DNA of 60,783 nucleotides, taken from IMG/VR virus record IMGVR_UViG_3300042922_000610, positions 1 to 60,783 of that record, one strand, 5' to 3'. The notes beneath the pieces are model-generated. The model made no database searches. It was not told the DNA's origin and saw only the letters and a list, made by a program, of their open reading frames with translations. A program made the position numbers and the translations under genes. Positions 6,249 to 38,289 of this stretch are shown piece after piece. Source of the DNA: a virus. Numbering within the stretch: the first letter of the stretch is position 1; each line of letters starts with the position of its first letter.

Positions 6249-6461
6249 ATGAATTACGGACAGGCCATTGAGGCCATGAAGAGAGGCGGAACGGCGTGGC
6301 GAGACAGTGCGCCAGACGCGATCGTGTTTATAGCGCATCACGGCACCCCGCTGGAATATATGTCGAAGATCACGCCGGATGGACAAGCCGTATTCCAGCC
6401 GACGACGAGGGACCAACTTGCCGAAGACTGGCTCGTCTCCGACGCGGATGAGGTGGCGTGA
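6249..6461 (+). CDS. Tad2-like protein (DUF2829), candidate anti-Thoeris
   Basis: 70 residues. The layout MNYGQAIEAMKRGG ... FIAHHGTPLEYM ... TTRDQLAEDWLV matches the DUF2829 family, to which the phage anti-defence protein Tad2 belongs. Tad2 proteins sequester the cyclic ADP-ribose-type signals made by Thoeris ThsB, and this one probably binds a small nucleotide signal. Length is a little under that of described members. ATG 6249 has the strong AAGAGGAGAC site; an upstream in-frame start would read through the hairpin leader. It lies beside an HNH-AP2 gene in the accessory operon. Family assignment is by eye from the conserved N- and C-terminal blocks. Confidence 0.7.
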   Translation: MNYGQAIEAMKRGGTAWRDSAPDAIVFIAHHGTPLEYMSKITPDGQAVFQPTTRDQLAEDWLVSDADEVA

Positions 6462-6940
6462 TGGTCACGCAGGAACGGTTAAAAGAACTCCTGCACTACA
6501 ATCCCGATACGGGAGTGTTCACGCGACGGGTGTCAGTCGCGCGCGGAGGCAAGGCCGGCGACACCGTGGGCACGGTCCAAAAGAAGGGGTATGTCGTCAT
6601 CAAAATTGACGGCAAGGTGTACTACGCGCACCGCCTTGCATGGCTCTATATGACTGGCGAGTGGCCCGCCAATGAGATCGACCACAAAAACTTGGATAAA
6701 TCATTCAATGCTTGGGGCAATCTCCGGGAGGCTACCAGTTCGCAAAATGCAGCCAACCGGCTTGGGTGGAGCGCGACGGGCTTTAAGGGCGTAGCTAAGA
6801 GCGGCAGCGGGTACAGGGCGGAAATCCAGGTTAATGGCAAGCGCCGCAATTTGGGGTCTTTCCGCACACCAGAGGAGGCACACGCTGCGTACGTCGAGGC
6901 AGCAAATAACAACTTCGGAAAATTTGCGAGGGCCTCATGA
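6461..6940 (+). CDS. HNH homing endonuclease with C-terminal AP2 domain
   Basis: 159 residues. The HNH core (AHRLAWLYMTGEWPANEIDH, then LREATSSQNAANR) is followed by an AP2 domain (FKGVAKSGSGYRAEIQVNG and NLGSFRTPEEAHAAY). This is the standard free-standing phage homing endonuclease layout. ATG 6461 overlaps the previous stop and the gene overlaps the HD hydrolase by 4 bp. The AP2 part resembles that of the fragment at 647-937, so the two may share an origin. Confidence 0.85.
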   Translation: MVTQERLKELLHYNPDTGVFTRRVSVARGGKAGDTVGTVQKKGYVVIKIDGKVYYAHRLAWLYMTGEWPANEIDHKNLDKSFNAWGNLREATSSQNAANRLGWSATGFKGVAKSGSGYRAEIQVNGKRRNLGSFRTPEEAHAAYVEAANNNFGKFARAS

Positions 6941-34549: not shown

Positions 34550-35487
34550 GCCGCCATGGATCTCTCGCCGAGCAACTATCTGCTTTTCGTCGATACGTCA
34601 CTGAACCAGATCACGAGCCGGAGCCAATACAGACGAACTGGTCGGTAATACCGGCCAACGACAACAACCCAGAGGATTTGGAGGATATGAAAGCCGAGCG
34701 GCTCTGGGATATTTCGCCGTCGCCAGAGGAGATCATGCGGCAAGTCGGGAAGGGCGATGTGGAATACGGCACCCACATCGACGACGACGACAAGCAACAC
34801 AAGGTCATTGTTCGCATGGGTCGCCTGCGCTTCAGCGACGGTACGCAAACGGAGCAAGGTTTCAAGCTTTCCATCGACGGTCAGGTGGTTGCGGCGCAGA
34901 TCCGCATGCCAGTCGGGGCGATGCTAGGAATGACCGACAAGGAACGAGCGCAGCGAGGCGGAGATGACAACCCAGAAGATCTCAAGTGCAGCAATGATTA
35001 TTTCGCGGGAAAGGCGACGGAGTACAGACCTGCAGGCCTGTTTAAAGCGACGCCCTCGAAGCCGGTAAGGAAAACCAAACGCCAAGAGAGAACGGCGAGC
35101 ACGAGCAAGGCGGAAGATCGCAAGATGCTGGCTGACGCCATGGCCAAGACAACCGTGCCAATCACTAAATGCCCTGACGGCTTCCCGGCGCTCCCAACCA
35201 AGCTGGCACACCTCTTCCCCGGTCTGGTTAAGGTTGCTACCGGAGATTCAGGCTCTCAGTCTTGGGAAGATACAGTCATCGAGCGCGAGAATCGGAGCGA
35301 ATGGTTCAGGTGGGTCGATGGGCTTAAGCCGAAGGACAAGGCCGTGTTGGAGGCTGGCAAGTCCGCCAGGTCATTTGAAGAACTTGGGGGTGGAGAACCG
35401 AAAAGAACTGCCATTCGGCGCGGGAAGAAGGCGCTCATTGCGGCAAACGACAATTTGATGGCTGCTATCAAGGCTTGCGCGGCATAG
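34546..35487 (+). CDS. Hypothetical phage protein
   Basis: 313 residues with two ANDN peptides, an acidic N-terminal half and a basic, helical C-terminal half (SKPVRKTKRQERTASTSKAE). No family recognised. It is the last gene of the early/middle block, before the packaging region, so it could be a late regulator; this is a guess from position only. Confidence 0.55.
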   Translation: MSRHGSLAEQLSAFRRYVTEPDHEPEPIQTNWSVIPANDNNPEDLEDMKAERLWDISPSPEEIMRQVGKGDVEYGTHIDDDDKQHKVIVRMGRLRFSDGTQTEQGFKLSIDGQVVAAQIRMPVGAMLGMTDKERAQRGGDDNPEDLKCSNDYFAGKATEYRPAGLFKATPSKPVRKTKRQERTASTSKAEDRKMLADAMAKTTVPITKCPDGFPALPTKLAHLFPGLVKVATGDSGSQSWEDTVIERENRSEWFRWVDGLKPKDKAVLEAGKSARSFEELGGGEPKRTAIRRGKKALIAANDNLMAAIKACAA

Positions 35488-35660
35488 TGGCACTTTCCGA
35501 CAAGTTGTCACCTTTATAGGTGAAGGGGTGGCGCAGAAAAGCTGTCACCCCACACCTTTCCGGCCGCACAGATTGTTTGCGACGGACGCTCGGCCAGAGA
35601 TGAGCCGGGCGTAACTATTGGCAGGTCCACACGGTGCACAGTTACGACGCTGCACGGTGG
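35488..35660. other. Intergenic region with inverted repeats before the packaging genes
   Basis: No gene seen. A large imperfect stem pairs 35518-35530 (AGGTG, GGGGTG) with 35546-35557 (CACCCC, CACCT). TGTCACC occurs at 35506 and 35544. TGCACAGTTA (35636-35645) repeats the word found in the candidate origin at 33.6 kb, and CACGGTG occurs twice (35630, 35653). It may be a regulatory or replication site. Confidence 0.4.
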
Positions 35661-35828
35661 ATAACCAAAGGCCCACCGCTATGGGAGCCGCCTGCATTCA
35701 ATGGAACCGCCTACGCCTCTCTACGATGCGCACCCTTGGCGGTCACTCCACAGCCCAGCGCCTCTGCTTCGGCACGCGTTGGCCTTCATTACCCTAGCGC
35801 GTCCTCCTCTCGCAGCTTGGGTAATCCG

Positions 35829-35875
35829 CGGCAGGCTCCCTTAAATGGTTGAGCCTGCCGCTTCTTGTTTTTTTT
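35829..35875 (+). terminator. Strong intrinsic terminator before the HNH/packaging block
   Basis: A 10-bp stem CGGCAGGCTC (35829-35838) with GAGCCTGCCG (35851-35860), 12-nt loop, and a run of T (35867-35875). It ends early/middle transcription, so the genes from 35977 need their own promoter or antitermination. Confidence 0.85.
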
Positions 35876-35880
35876 GCATC

Positions 35881-35976
35881 GGCGCGATTCTCGACCTCTC
35901 GCGCTGATCTTAGGCGGGTGGGCTTCGGCTCACCCGCTTTCAACATGAGGTCGATCCCAAACATGGAGTCGAGACC
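35881..35976 (+). ncRNA. Structured RNA leader, copy A, upstream of an HNH gene
   Basis: P1: GCGCG/CGCGC closes a 13-nt loop ATTCTCGACCTCT. P2: a 10-bp stem GCGGGTGGGC/GCTCACCCGC with a TTCG tetraloop. GAGGTCGA (35947-35954) is complementary to TCGACCTC of the P1 loop, making a pseudoknot. GTCGAGA beside the ribosome site (GGAGTCGAGACC) can pair with the same loop instead. Copy B at 36908-36999 keeps every pairing with different stem sequences. Confidence 0.7.
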
Positions 35977-36612
35977 ATGGGAAAAGCGAATGATTTAACG
36001 GGCGCAAGATTCGGGCGTCTTCTTGTCGTTGGCAAATCGGCCCACAAAGACGGCAAGAACACGCACTGGGATTATGTTTGCGACTGTGGAAATACAGGCC
36101 ACGCGCATACGGCCCGCCTCAACGGCGGGCAGCGCAGTTGTGGTTGCCACACAAAAGAAGCGATTGGTCCGCGCTCAATAACCCACGGGCAGACGGTCGG
36201 GTGGAAGTGGACGACAACATACCGATGCTACCGCGCAATGATCGCAAGGTGCATCTACCCAAGCCAAATGTACTACGACGATTACGGCGGTCGTGGCATT
36301 AAGGTTTGCGACAGGTGGATGCATGGCGAAAATGGTATGTCTGGATACGAATGCTTTGTTGCTGATATGGGCGAGAAGCCGCGCGGCTTAACCATCGACC
36401 GCAAGAACAATGACGGCAACTACGAGCCAGGCAATTGCCGATGGGCCACGCAGTCTGAGCAGATGTTAAACACCCGCGCTTCCAAGGTTACGCCGGAGAT
36501 GGCCGATCAAATACGGCTTGCATATAAAATCGGTGAAACGCAGATCAGGATTGCGCTTAGGTTTGGGCTTTCGCAATCTCATGTCTCAACCGTCATCAAG
36601 CAGGCAGCCTGA
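35977..36612 (+). CDS. Phage HNH-type endonuclease with C-terminal HTH
   Basis: 211 residues. The N-terminus (DLTGARFGRLLVVGKSAHKD ... CDCGN ... RSCGCH) and centre (YDDYGGRGIKVCDRW, GLTIDRKNNDGNYEPGNCRW) match a very common phage family annotated as HNH or AP2-like endonucleases. A C-terminal HTH (QIRIALRFGLSQSHVSTVIK) probably helps target DNA. ATG 35977 lies directly after the structured leader, with its GGAG site inside that leader. It may be a mobile homing gene inserted before the packaging HNH gene, whose start it overlaps. Confidence 0.82.
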   Translation: MGKANDLTGARFGRLLVVGKSAHKDGKNTHWDYVCDCGNTGHAHTARLNGGQRSCGCHTKEAIGPRSITHGQTVGWKWTTTYRCYRAMIARCIYPSQMYYDDYGGRGIKVCDRWMHGENGMSGYECFVADMGEKPRGLTIDRKNNDGNYEPGNCRWATQSEQMLNTRASKVTPEMADQIRLAYKIGETQIRIALRFGLSQSHVSTVIKQAA

Positions 36613-36904
36613 CCGCAGATCTGACGATGCACGCCAGCGGAGAAGGTTGTATAAAACCGCCCGCTGGCGTCGCATCCGACATAACCAGCTATCGCTGCAT
36701 CCGCTGTGCGCATGGTGTCTTGAGCGTGACGAAGTCACCGAGGCAACCGAAGTGCATCACGCTGTACCGCACAAGGGCAACGAGGAGATCTTCTGGAATG
36801 GCCCGTTCGTCAGCACGTGCACGCCCTGCCACTCGTCGAGAGGACAGCTAGAGGACCATGGCAAGACGGTCGTGGTGTATGGCGCGGATGGGTGGCCGAT
36901 TTAG
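36581..36904 (+). CDS. HNH endonuclease of the packaging module
   Basis: 107 residues. HNH core: LCAWCLERDEVTEATEVHHA then NGPFVSTCTPCHSSR. Small HNH proteins in front of TerS/TerL are usual in HK97-like phages, where they assist terminase in cos cleavage. It starts at ATG 36581 inside the preceding gene and lacks a clear ribosome site. The HNH gene and leader at 36908 now separate it from terS. Confidence 0.82.
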   Translation: MSQPSSSRQPDRRSDDARQRRRLYKTARWRRIRHNQLSLHPLCAWCLERDEVTEATEVHHAVPHKGNEEIFWNGPFVSTCTPCHSSRGQLEDHGKTVVVYGADGWPI

Positions 36905-36907
36905 ATA

Positions 36908-36999
36908 ACTCGCGATTCTCGACCTCTCGCGAGCTTGGGTGGCGGGAAGTTTCGGCTTCCCGTCACTACCAATATGGGGTCGAACAGGGAGTCGAGACC
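36908..36999 (+). ncRNA. Structured RNA leader, copy B, upstream of a second HNH gene
   Basis: P1: CTCGCG/CGCGAG closes the same 13-nt loop ATTCTCGACCTCT as copy A. P2: GGCGGGAAGT/GCTTCCCGTC with TTCG. GGGGTCGA (36977-36984) pairs with the P1 loop, with one G-T pair. GGAGTCGAGACC ends exactly at the TTG start. Stem bases differ from copy A but pairing is kept, which supports a real RNA structure. It begins three bases after the preceding stop codon. Confidence 0.7.
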
Positions 37000-37791
37000 T
37001 TGTCCATGATGGATGATTTATTTGGATGCCCGCCTAGGGCAGCGAATGACAATGTTCGGGATCGCTCTGTCGAGAAGCCACGCGACAGGAGGGCTGAACA
37101 CGAACGGCGTCTAGCGCGATCGCCTGACCGTGTTTGCGAACACTGCGGGGCCGTATTCAAGAAGGTGCAAAAGGACAAGCTGCCTCCGCGATACTGCTCC
37201 AAGGTATGCAGTGGCAGCGCCGGTATGGCCGCTATCCATGCGGGAAGGCTGCCTTGTCCAGTTTCATATTCGGTGTACAGACCGCTGTGCGGGTGTTGCG
37301 GTGTGCGCTTTACCGCATCGAATAGATTGGCACGGTTGTGTTCTGATGAGTGTAGAGCGGAAGACGCGCGCGTAAAGGCTCGCAAGTACGCTGAAGCAAA
37401 CGATAACCGGGACAGATCGGCAAGGCCATGCGCAGAGTGCGGCGACCCATTCATTCCAGAATACGGGAACAAGAAGAGCAAATACTGCTCAGATAACTGC
37501 ATGAAGCGGGCCACTCGACGCGTATCAAAGGGCTTGCGTAAAGCAAGGATGAGGGCAACGATAGTTGAGCCTGTCAATCCCATTGCTGTCTTCGACCGTG
37601 ATGGATGGATGTGCCAACTGTGCGGCGTTGAGACGCCAAGAGAATTGCGCGGAACTTACGACAATGCTGCGCCCGAACTGGACCATGTCGTGCCCCTGTC
37701 AAAGGGTGGCGCTCATACATACGACAACACTCAGTGCTCTTGTCGCGAGTGCAATCAGCGTAAGAGCGACATCATGCCAATGGTCGCGTGA
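37000..37791 (+). CDS. HNH endonuclease with zinc-ribbon N-terminus
   Basis: 263 residues from TTG 37000, the position matching the ATG of copy A (ATG 37006 is an alternative). Three Cys-rich zinc-binding blocks (CEHCGAVF ... CSKVC, CGCCGVRF ... CSDEC, CAECGDPF ... CSDNC) lead to a C-terminal HNH domain (CQLCGVETP ... LDHVVPLSKGG ... CRECNQRKSD). It is not homologous by eye to the HNH gene at 35977, yet shares its RNA leader. Two ANDN peptides occur. Probably a homing or defence-type nuclease inserted between the packaging HNH and terS. Confidence 0.8.
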   Translation: MSMMDDLFGCPPRAANDNVRDRSVEKPRDRRAEHERRLARSPDRVCEHCGAVFKKVQKDKLPPRYCSKVCSGSAGMAAIHAGRLPCPVSYSVYRPLCGCCGVRFTASNRLARLCSDECRAEDARVKARKYAEANDNRDRSARPCAECGDPFIPEYGNKKSKYCSDNCMKRATRRVSKGLRKARMRATIVEPVNPIAVFDRDGWMCQLCGVETPRELRGTYDNAAPELDHVVPLSKGGAHTYDNTQCSCRECNQRKSDIMPMVA

Positions 37792-37794
37792 TTG

Positions 37795-37865
37795 ATGGCC
37801 CCACAAAGGGGAGGGGGTACCGAAGGGTTGCTCGCTTGCCCGGTCGGGGGACCGGCGGGGGCCAT
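37795..37865. other. Candidate cos / packaging site upstream of terS
   Basis: Nested dyads: outer ATGGCCCC (37795-37802) with GGGGCCAT (37858-37865), inner CCGGTC (37840-37845) with GACCGG (37850-37855) around GGGG. The segment is very GC-rich and lies between the HNH genes and terS, where cos is found in many HK97-like phages. A terminator is less likely because the T-run is 9 bases away. The cut position cannot be read from sequence. Confidence 0.4.
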
Positions 37866-37905
37866 TCTTGCACATTTTTTCAATTGAAATGTTGAGGGTA
37901 GGGCG

Positions 37906-38289
37906 ATGGCTAGGCCAAGGACGCCGAAGGCCAAGGCCGAAATCACCGGCCACGCCAGCAAGCAGAAAACAAAGTTTGAGGCCCGCAACGAGCCCACTGT
38001 CGCCGACAGCGTCGGGGAGCCGTTCGACTGGCTAAATGAGTTCGCGCAGAAGGCATGGCGCGAGATTGCATCTGAGGTGCCCTGGCTCAATTCGAGCCAC
38101 CGAGGCCATCTGGCGATTGCCGCAAATATCCGCGGCCGGATGATGAAGGGTGAAGACGTTGGCGTGCAAGCCATGAACCTTCTGCGCCAGTGCTACGGTC
38201 AAATGGGCGCGACGCCGGCTGATGCCAGCAAGGCTGGAGCTAAACCGGATGGCGAAAGCAAAGACCCCGCAGACGAGTTCTTCGACTAG
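37906..38289 (+). CDS. terS: Terminase small subunit
   Basis: 127 residues. Basic N-terminus (MARPRTPKAKAEITGHASKQ), central helical domain (WLNEFAQKAWREIASEVPWL), and acidic C-terminus (DPADEFFD), as in HK97-like small terminases of about this size. It recognises the packaging site and recruits TerL, whose start it overlaps. Confidence 0.78.
   Translation: MARPRTPKAKAEITGHASKQKTKFEARNEPTVADSVGEPFDWLNEFAQKAWREIASEVPWLNSSHRGHLAIAANIRGRMMKGEDVGVQAMNLLRQCYGQMGATPADASKAGAKPDGESKDPADEFFD

Follow-up and report, generated by a model that had tools for sequence, protein, structure and literature searches.

The question raised by this locus is why two HNH nuclease genes of different families, situated next to the terminase genes of a virus, should be preceded by similar leader sequences. 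The stretch of DNA analysed here, hereafter referred to as the window, comprises 60,783 nt of the IMG/VR record IMGVR_UViG_3300042922_000610. An earlier note, made from these letters without database searches, had claimed that two leaders of about 95 nt end exactly at the start codons of two nuclease genes of different families. Both parts of this claim hold: the leaders abut ATG 35977 and TTG 37000, respectively, and the genes that follow them belong to PHROG 374 (P0001) and PHROG 1271/PF01844 (P0003). The small HNH gene P0002 between them is a resident gene rather than cargo, and its true start is probably located just upstream, inside P0001. The genes coding for the small terminase (PHROG 83), the large terminase and the portal protein are found 3' of the nuclease cassettes. 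The coordinates of all features are listed in Table 1.

Table 1. Features of the two leader RNAs and their nuclease genes in the window. Duplex energies are those of isolated duplexes, pseudoknot loop penalties left out.
Feature	Coordinates	Strand	Remarks
Leader RNA copy 1, full element	35879..35976	+	abuts ATG 35977; 99.1 bits to model R1
Copy 1 P1	35879-35887 with 35899-35907	+	9 bp; loop UUCUCGACCUC 35888-35898
Copy 1 P2	35912-35923 with 35928-35939	+	UUCG loop
Copy 1 PK1 element GAGGUCG	35947..35953	+	pairs with loop CGACCUC; -10.8 kcal/mol
Copy 1 Shine-Dalgarno GGAG	35965-35968	+	overlaps PK2 element GUCGAGA 35968-35974
Copy 1 PK2 element GUCGAGA	35968-35974	+	pairs with loop UCUCGAC; -11.6 kcal/mol with SD
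Nuclease cargo 1, P0001	35977..36612	+	PHROG 374 HNH; C-terminal helix-turn-helix-like match
P0002, small HNH gene adjoining terminase genes	36599..36904	+	resident gene, not cargo
Slot-2 insertion (leader 2 + cargo 2), approximate extent	36905..37805	+	relative to leaderless L144; right edge ±~20 nt
Leader RNA copy 2, full element	36909..36999	+	abuts TTG 37000; 83.6 bits to model R1
Copy 2 P1	36909-36915 with 36927-36933	+	7 bp; loop UUCUCGACCUC 36916-36926
Copy 2 P2	36938-36950 with 36955-36967	+	UUCG loop
Copy 2 PK1 element GGGGUCG	36976..36982	+	one G-U pair with loop
Copy 2 Shine-Dalgarno GGGAG	36987-36991	+	overlaps PK2 element GUCGAGA 36991-36997
Nuclease cargo 2, P0003	37000..37791	+	zinc-ribbon HNH, PF01844/PHROG 1271; TTG start

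Each leader is built, in this order, of the hairpins P1 and P2, the element GAGGUCG or GGGGUCG, then GGAGUCGAGACC and the start codon. Both copies fold more stably than their dinucleotide shuffles (z = -4.1 for leader 1 and -2.9 for leader 2), and the conserved P1 loop and GGAGTCGAGACC have no other exact occurrence in the window. As had been noticed earlier, P1 and P2 differ in sequence between the copies yet stay paired, and the P1 loop is the same in both; the loop is, however, not a 13-mer but the 11-mer UUCUCGACCUC, since A35887 pairs with T35899 and A36915 with T36927. The proposal that two pairings compete for this one loop also stands. The two downstream elements (GAGGTCG/GGGGTCG and GTCGAGA in the DNA) are each complementary to the P1 loop over 7 nt, and the two resulting pseudoknots, PK1 and PK2, have four loop bases in common (positions 5-8) and are thus mutually exclusive, whereas positions 2-4 and 9-11 of the loop provide separate 3-base toeholds. 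A Rho-independent terminator or attenuator at P2 was rejected as an explanation: none was called in either copy, and no U tract follows P2 of copy 2.

The leader is a widespread RNA family. Model-based and pattern searches together led to the identification of ~54 leaders in 53 viral records. The exact pattern matched 36 IMG/VR contigs, and relaxed patterns combined with protein-anchored searches gave 52 contigs besides the window, random coding-sequence matches having been removed by inspection; most of the pattern matches in genome contigs likewise turned out to be coding-sequence coincidences and were discarded. In addition, the leader is present in Sinorhizobium phage NV1.1.1 and in genomes of Rhizobium, Agrobacterium, Xaviernesmea, Shinella and Ochrobactrum (Rhizobiaceae/Brucellaceae prophages), with two more genomes contributed by the search of the family. 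Model R1 separates true members (at least 39 bits) from everything else (at most 27 bits). When the best 10 candidates per genome were scored, one strong match was obtained among 397 genomes of the order, the rest scoring no higher than 27 bits, and three among 395 genomes of the family; with this number of candidates scored, absence from the two samples is weak evidence. Hence, the covariance-model search proposed in the earlier note does yield homologues, which lie upstream of nuclease genes and carry compensatory changes.

None of the 4227 families of Rfam 15 gave a match overlapping either leader, at the gathering threshold across the window or at a permissive one within 35480-37010, and known families such as ROSE, riboswitches and HEARO, among others, were ruled out in the absence of any matching curated covariance model. 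No leader-like sequence was found in PLSDB plasmids, and no earlier description of the leader in the open-access literature, a search which did not extend to the main 2017 survey of bacterial RNA motifs. A sequence-free structural descriptor applied to all fetched loci returned 373 matches with both pairings versus 159 in reversed controls; the matches listed were mostly known members, and no new family was recognised among them.

Pairing statistics were obtained from an alignment of 34 distinct sequences. P1 is paired in 98.7% of the cells, with changes on both sides in 8 of its 9 pairs, the only pair without covariation being the invariant A-U closing pair, and P2 is paired in 86%, with changes on both sides in 7 of 10. 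The alignment contains 68 G-U but 3 A-C cells, which argues for selection on the sense-strand RNA; a structure of the minus strand or of the DNA was rejected on this ground and on account of weak minus-strand model scores. As for the pseudoknots, 99.2% of the PK1 cells and 100% of the PK2 cells are paired, the latter with three pairs changed on both sides, while partners slid by 1-3 columns as a control were only 16-51% paired. Breaks of a pair in single copies were seen in PK1 (L039, L336) and in PK2 (L056).

Two groups of variants are the most informative for the pseudoknots. In class B (L288, L289, L290, L296, L338, L340 and L344; loop UUCUUGACCUC, elements GAGGUCA and GUCAAG), of which no representative was found among GenBank phages, the loop has changed from C to U, and both elements have changed correspondingly from G to A. 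In class C (L291 and L215; loop UCUUCGACCUC, elements GAGGUCG and GUCGAAG), the loop has CU in place of UC, for which PK2 alone compensates, having AG in place of GA. A Monte Carlo simulation in which equally many transitions were placed at random gave a joint p of 2e-5, or ~3e-7 if any substitution was allowed, although the pseudoknot covariation (p ~2e-5) rests on only two evolutionary events, those of classes B and C. Significant covariation, which had also been raised in the earlier note, was obtained in part: under an R-scape-like tree-based null, E<0.05 over all column pairs was reached by one P1 pair and by no pseudoknot pair, while the top 16 of ~4,500 column pairs included further P1 pairs as well as the pair that PK2 forms at loop position 5. 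The compensatory changes themselves are found in P1, P2 and both pseudoknots, and, as far as aligned sequences can tell, they lend support to both competing pairings.

The loop and the two elements hardly vary in sequence and are more conserved than base pairing alone demands, as might be expected if the leader were bound by an RNA-binding protein, of phage or host origin, which recognises one pseudoknot, the second being secondary or formed in the bound state only. Protein-bound autoregulation is exemplified by T4 gene 32 and by ribosomal proteins, and pseudoknotted autoregulatory leaders are known in phage; the conservation of the second element, too, might reflect the binding of a factor and not a switch. 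However, those loop changes that do occur are compensated, which keeps the pairing logic, and no regulator gene evidently co-occurs. We regard such a binding site as an unlikely principal function, and one that does not exclude a switch.

Every leader found is followed directly by an ORF of nuclease type, which in L010, L069 and L072 has been reduced to a remnant by frameshift or truncation, and in all copies found the start codon, ATG, TTG or GTG, has GGAG ~8 nt upstream. Judged by sequence, the gene 3' of every leader is of the homing type and belongs to the HNH, GIY-YIG or PD-(D/E)XK nucleases. The cargos include P0003-like HNH proteins, P0001-like HNH proteins (PHROG 374), HNH_3 proteins (P0005, PHROG 99), another HNH_3-like protein (P0006), a PHROG-655 homing-endonuclease-like protein (L076) with a related ORF in L044, a PD-(D/E)XK protein (P0004) with a PF11645 match below its cut-off, and the cargo of L051, in which NUMOD3 and an AP2-like domain were detected with Pfam and a GIY-YIG-like N-terminus was read by eye. 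They thus appear to span at least seven families and three nuclease superfamilies, the third superfamily resting on the by-eye reading of L051. The view that the leader is common to unrelated genes is therefore borne out far more widely than in the two copies from which it arose, and so is the argument against simple gene duplication: duplication of leader plus gene was rejected because the cargos are unrelated.

The diversity of the cargos also disfavours the suggestion of the earlier note that the leader is a site bound by the nuclease, whether as a guide-like RNA of the IscB omega RNA/HEARO kind or for autorepression. The cis location beside an HNH gene would be in line with it, as would the fact that the HNH domain of P0003 weakly matches IscB. 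Nevertheless, this match (26 bits) is far below the cut-off of 175, there is no Rfam match, and one leader serves HNH, GIY-YIG and PD-(D/E)XK proteins without a shared domain, so that binding by the encoded nuclease seems scarcely credible. An IscB/omega RNA system proper was rejected on the same IscB score, the other cargos being unrelated to IscB.

Several further observations concern the nucleases. The PD-(D/E)XK gene of L069 (Ochrobactrum sp. Q0168) is frameshifted and its leader is mismatched in both P1 and P2, a decay consistent with upkeep of the leader only alongside a working gene. The HNH_3 nuclease P0005, which is leader-bearing, has a leaderless relative (52% identity) in the window, at 6458-6940 (+). 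Many cargos, e.g. those of L051, L028 and L001, end in QxSLF, QLRLFG or QLSLF, which is reminiscent of the bacterial sliding-clamp-binding motif. Meanwhile, ANDN..EANAA-like tails, such as PAPANDNNNDEANAA, terminate several ORFs of ~430-440 codons at terL loci, and the nuclease of L017 ends in AANDNVNKFKCEAA; tails of these types resemble the alphaproteobacterial SsrA tag, AANDN...AA. ANDN as a cassette-specific tag was rejected: it is denser in cargos but common in other proteins of these phages.

The leader adjoins a P0002 homologue at all loci with flanks of sufficient length to judge. Two slots can be distinguished, one before P0002 (slot 1) and the other after the P0002 stop codon and before terS (slot 2), and the window has both. 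When 64 loci with related TerL were scanned, the leader was found in 8, each time followed by a nuclease gene. Locus L144, with TerL 95% and TerS 90% identical to those of the window, is leaderless and lacks both insertions. Its difference from the window at slot 2 consists of leader 2 and P0003, the edges being located directly after the P0002 stop codon and within ~20 nt of the P0003 stop codon. The slot-1 insertion is seen in L154 as compared with L153 and L144, and the leader begins in this slot where the T tract of a preceding hairpin ends. Since relatives at the same site have neither leader nor gene, the leader and the nuclease gene are one inserted unit. Nucleases without a leader also occupy these slots (L163, L149, L146), indicating that the leader belongs to certain cassettes and not to the site. 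Moreover, leader and gene recombine as modules: the homology of L002 and L024 (89%) extends up to the start codon and is followed by PD-(D/E)XK or HNH genes, and the class C leader precedes a P0001-like gene in L342 and a P0003-like gene in L345.

The position of the leader at the 5' edge of insertions, together with the L002/L024 homology that stops exactly at the start codon, so that leaders can be recombination arms, might be taken as a sign of a DNA element, i.e. a recombination or homing site or a single-stranded DNA hairpin serving cassette mobility or gene replacement. Such an element would leave the above selection on the sense RNA unaccounted for, as well as a structure which stops at the start codon with the SD built in and the related nucleases present in the same slots without a leader. 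That leaders can serve as homology arms may be a side effect, and we find a DNA element very improbable.

The surroundings of the cassettes show other features. An abiF RNA (RF03085, 40.9 bits, above gathering) is located at 35707-35743 (+) of the window; it is absent from ten related loci, and no AbiF/Abi_2 gene is present in the viral record that carries it. It is possibly an orphan RNA partner of AbiF and a counter-defence candidate. A second conserved two-hairpin element, at 35779-35877 (+) in the window and also at L039, L144, L153, L154, L158, L161, L178 and L215, lies directly 5' of leader 1 or P0002. It comprises a hairpin with the anti-SD-like loop CCTCCTCT, then a terminator-like hairpin and a T tract; its stems differ between phages while the loop CCTCCTCT is kept, and it has no Rfam match in the window. 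Clusters of tRNA genes are found just 5' of the leader or P0002 at L001, L005, L006, L144, L146, L163, L169, L196, L288 and L296; in L288 and L296 the tRNA ends ~17 nt before the leader, and tRNA processing could set the 5' end of the leader there. Finally, a conserved stretch 5' of terS (37800-37905 of the window, matched in L144, L154 and L157) contains GGGGCCATTCTTGCACATTTTTTCAATTGAAATGTTGAGGGT, and its position and conservation are suggestive of a putative cos site.

The fold of the RNA, its conservation, both complementarities, the position of the start codon and the insertion of leader with gene, all documented by sequence comparison, can be accommodated in a single model. The leader RNA and a homing-type endonuclease gene would together make up a mobile cassette, with the leader as its 5' untranslated region, and this cassette would insert either before or after the small HNH gene adjoining the terminase genes. 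P1 would present the 11-nt loop, the ACCUC of which equals part of the 16S anti-Shine-Dalgarno and may mimic it. PK1, formed by the loop and the upstream decoy GAGGUCG, would arise first during transcription and leave the SD and the start codon free, while PK2, formed by the same loop and the SD-overlapping GUCGAGA, would block initiation; a conserved pairing that sequesters the SD is possible, as PK2 overlaps it. Because they share loop bases and each has a 3-nt toehold of its own, PK1 and PK2 can be converted into each other by toehold exchange. From this arrangement we infer which way the switch works, PK2 repressing translation and PK1 permitting it.

For canonical copies, the energies of the isolated duplexes, computed with pseudoknot loop penalties left out, are ~-10.8 kcal/mol for PK1 and ~-11.8 kcal/mol for PK2 with the SD, and such near-equality would be expected of a bistable switch. 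In the variants L047, L051 and L052, PK2 together with the SD forms a longer duplex of 10-11 contiguous bp (-17.8 to -18.5 kcal/mol), and the duplex energies of class B lean to PK1 over PK2 by ~2.4 kcal/mol, so that not every copy is balanced. A static 5' structure that enhances translation or stabilises the mRNA (standby site, RNase protection) and adopts one state in vivo would agree with the strong SD and start codon at a fixed distance and with the stable, GC-rich P2 closed by a UUCG loop. It leaves unexplained why the complementarity of a single loop to two competing elements has survived sequence change, and why complementarity to the SD-overlapping segment is conserved; hence, we hold it to be improbable. 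The reading that we favour, and consider rather probable, is that of a cassette-borne bistable translational switch with a permissive PK1 state and an SD-blocking PK2 state. Such a switch would presumably limit or time the synthesis of a toxic nuclease, and control of this kind might let unrelated nucleases share one leader. Only tentatively can the leader be regarded, more broadly, as a mobile bistable toehold-exchange riboregulator, that is, a general expression module which serves three nuclease superfamilies and doubles as a homology arm for gene replacement at the packaging locus.

A free-standing homing endonuclease has to keep its own toxicity in check, and one small RNA solution to this problem seems to be common to nucleases without common ancestry, which implies that what defines the mobile unit is its RNA and not its protein. 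As a putative natural two-pseudoknot switch of compact size, the leader offers clean, opposite predictions for single mutants. The host range is narrow, the phages concerned being those that infect rhizobia and related bacteria; for rhizobial and Brucella-type phages, the covariance model is a means of finding nuclease cassettes of any family, many of them annotated only as hypothetical proteins.

Among known systems, HEARO/IscB omega RNA is likewise an RNA upstream of an HNH ORF, but the leader differs from it in size and structure, has no Rfam match and serves cargo beyond one protein family. Pseudoknot translational regulators, such as the T4 gene 32 leader, SD-sequestering riboswitches of the preQ1 type and the S15 and alpha-operon leaders, also have a pseudoknot near or at the SD and competing states; here, in contrast, a single hairpin loop is contested by two alternative partners, again without an Rfam match. 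In T4, control of the homing endonucleases I-TevI, I-TevII, I-TevIII, segB and mobE is exerted by hairpins that sequester the RBS (PMC2988022). The leader resembles these in preceding homing-type endonuclease genes of phages as a 5' RNA structure that involves the SD, and in the presumed delay or limit of nuclease synthesis. However, the T4 hairpins are simple and gene-specific, with timing derived from a late promoter inside the hairpin (PMC2988022), whereas the leader is one conserved two-hairpin, two-pseudoknot module which is common to unrelated nucleases, travels with them and has no promoter match in its region (sigma-70-like scan of 35480-38000, rhizobial phage late promoters being outside the models of the scan). 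The region upstream of the terminase has been described as a hot spot at which several classes of nuclease gene occur (PMC10448857); the diverse nucleases found here upstream of the terminase conform to this picture, and the keyword-matched passages of that report describe neither a shared leader RNA nor an insertion unit with one. By analogy, the logic of an SD-blocking leader would itself be already known from the T4 homing endonucleases, while a conserved pseudoknot module inside the inserted unit, common to unrelated nucleases, seems to be new.
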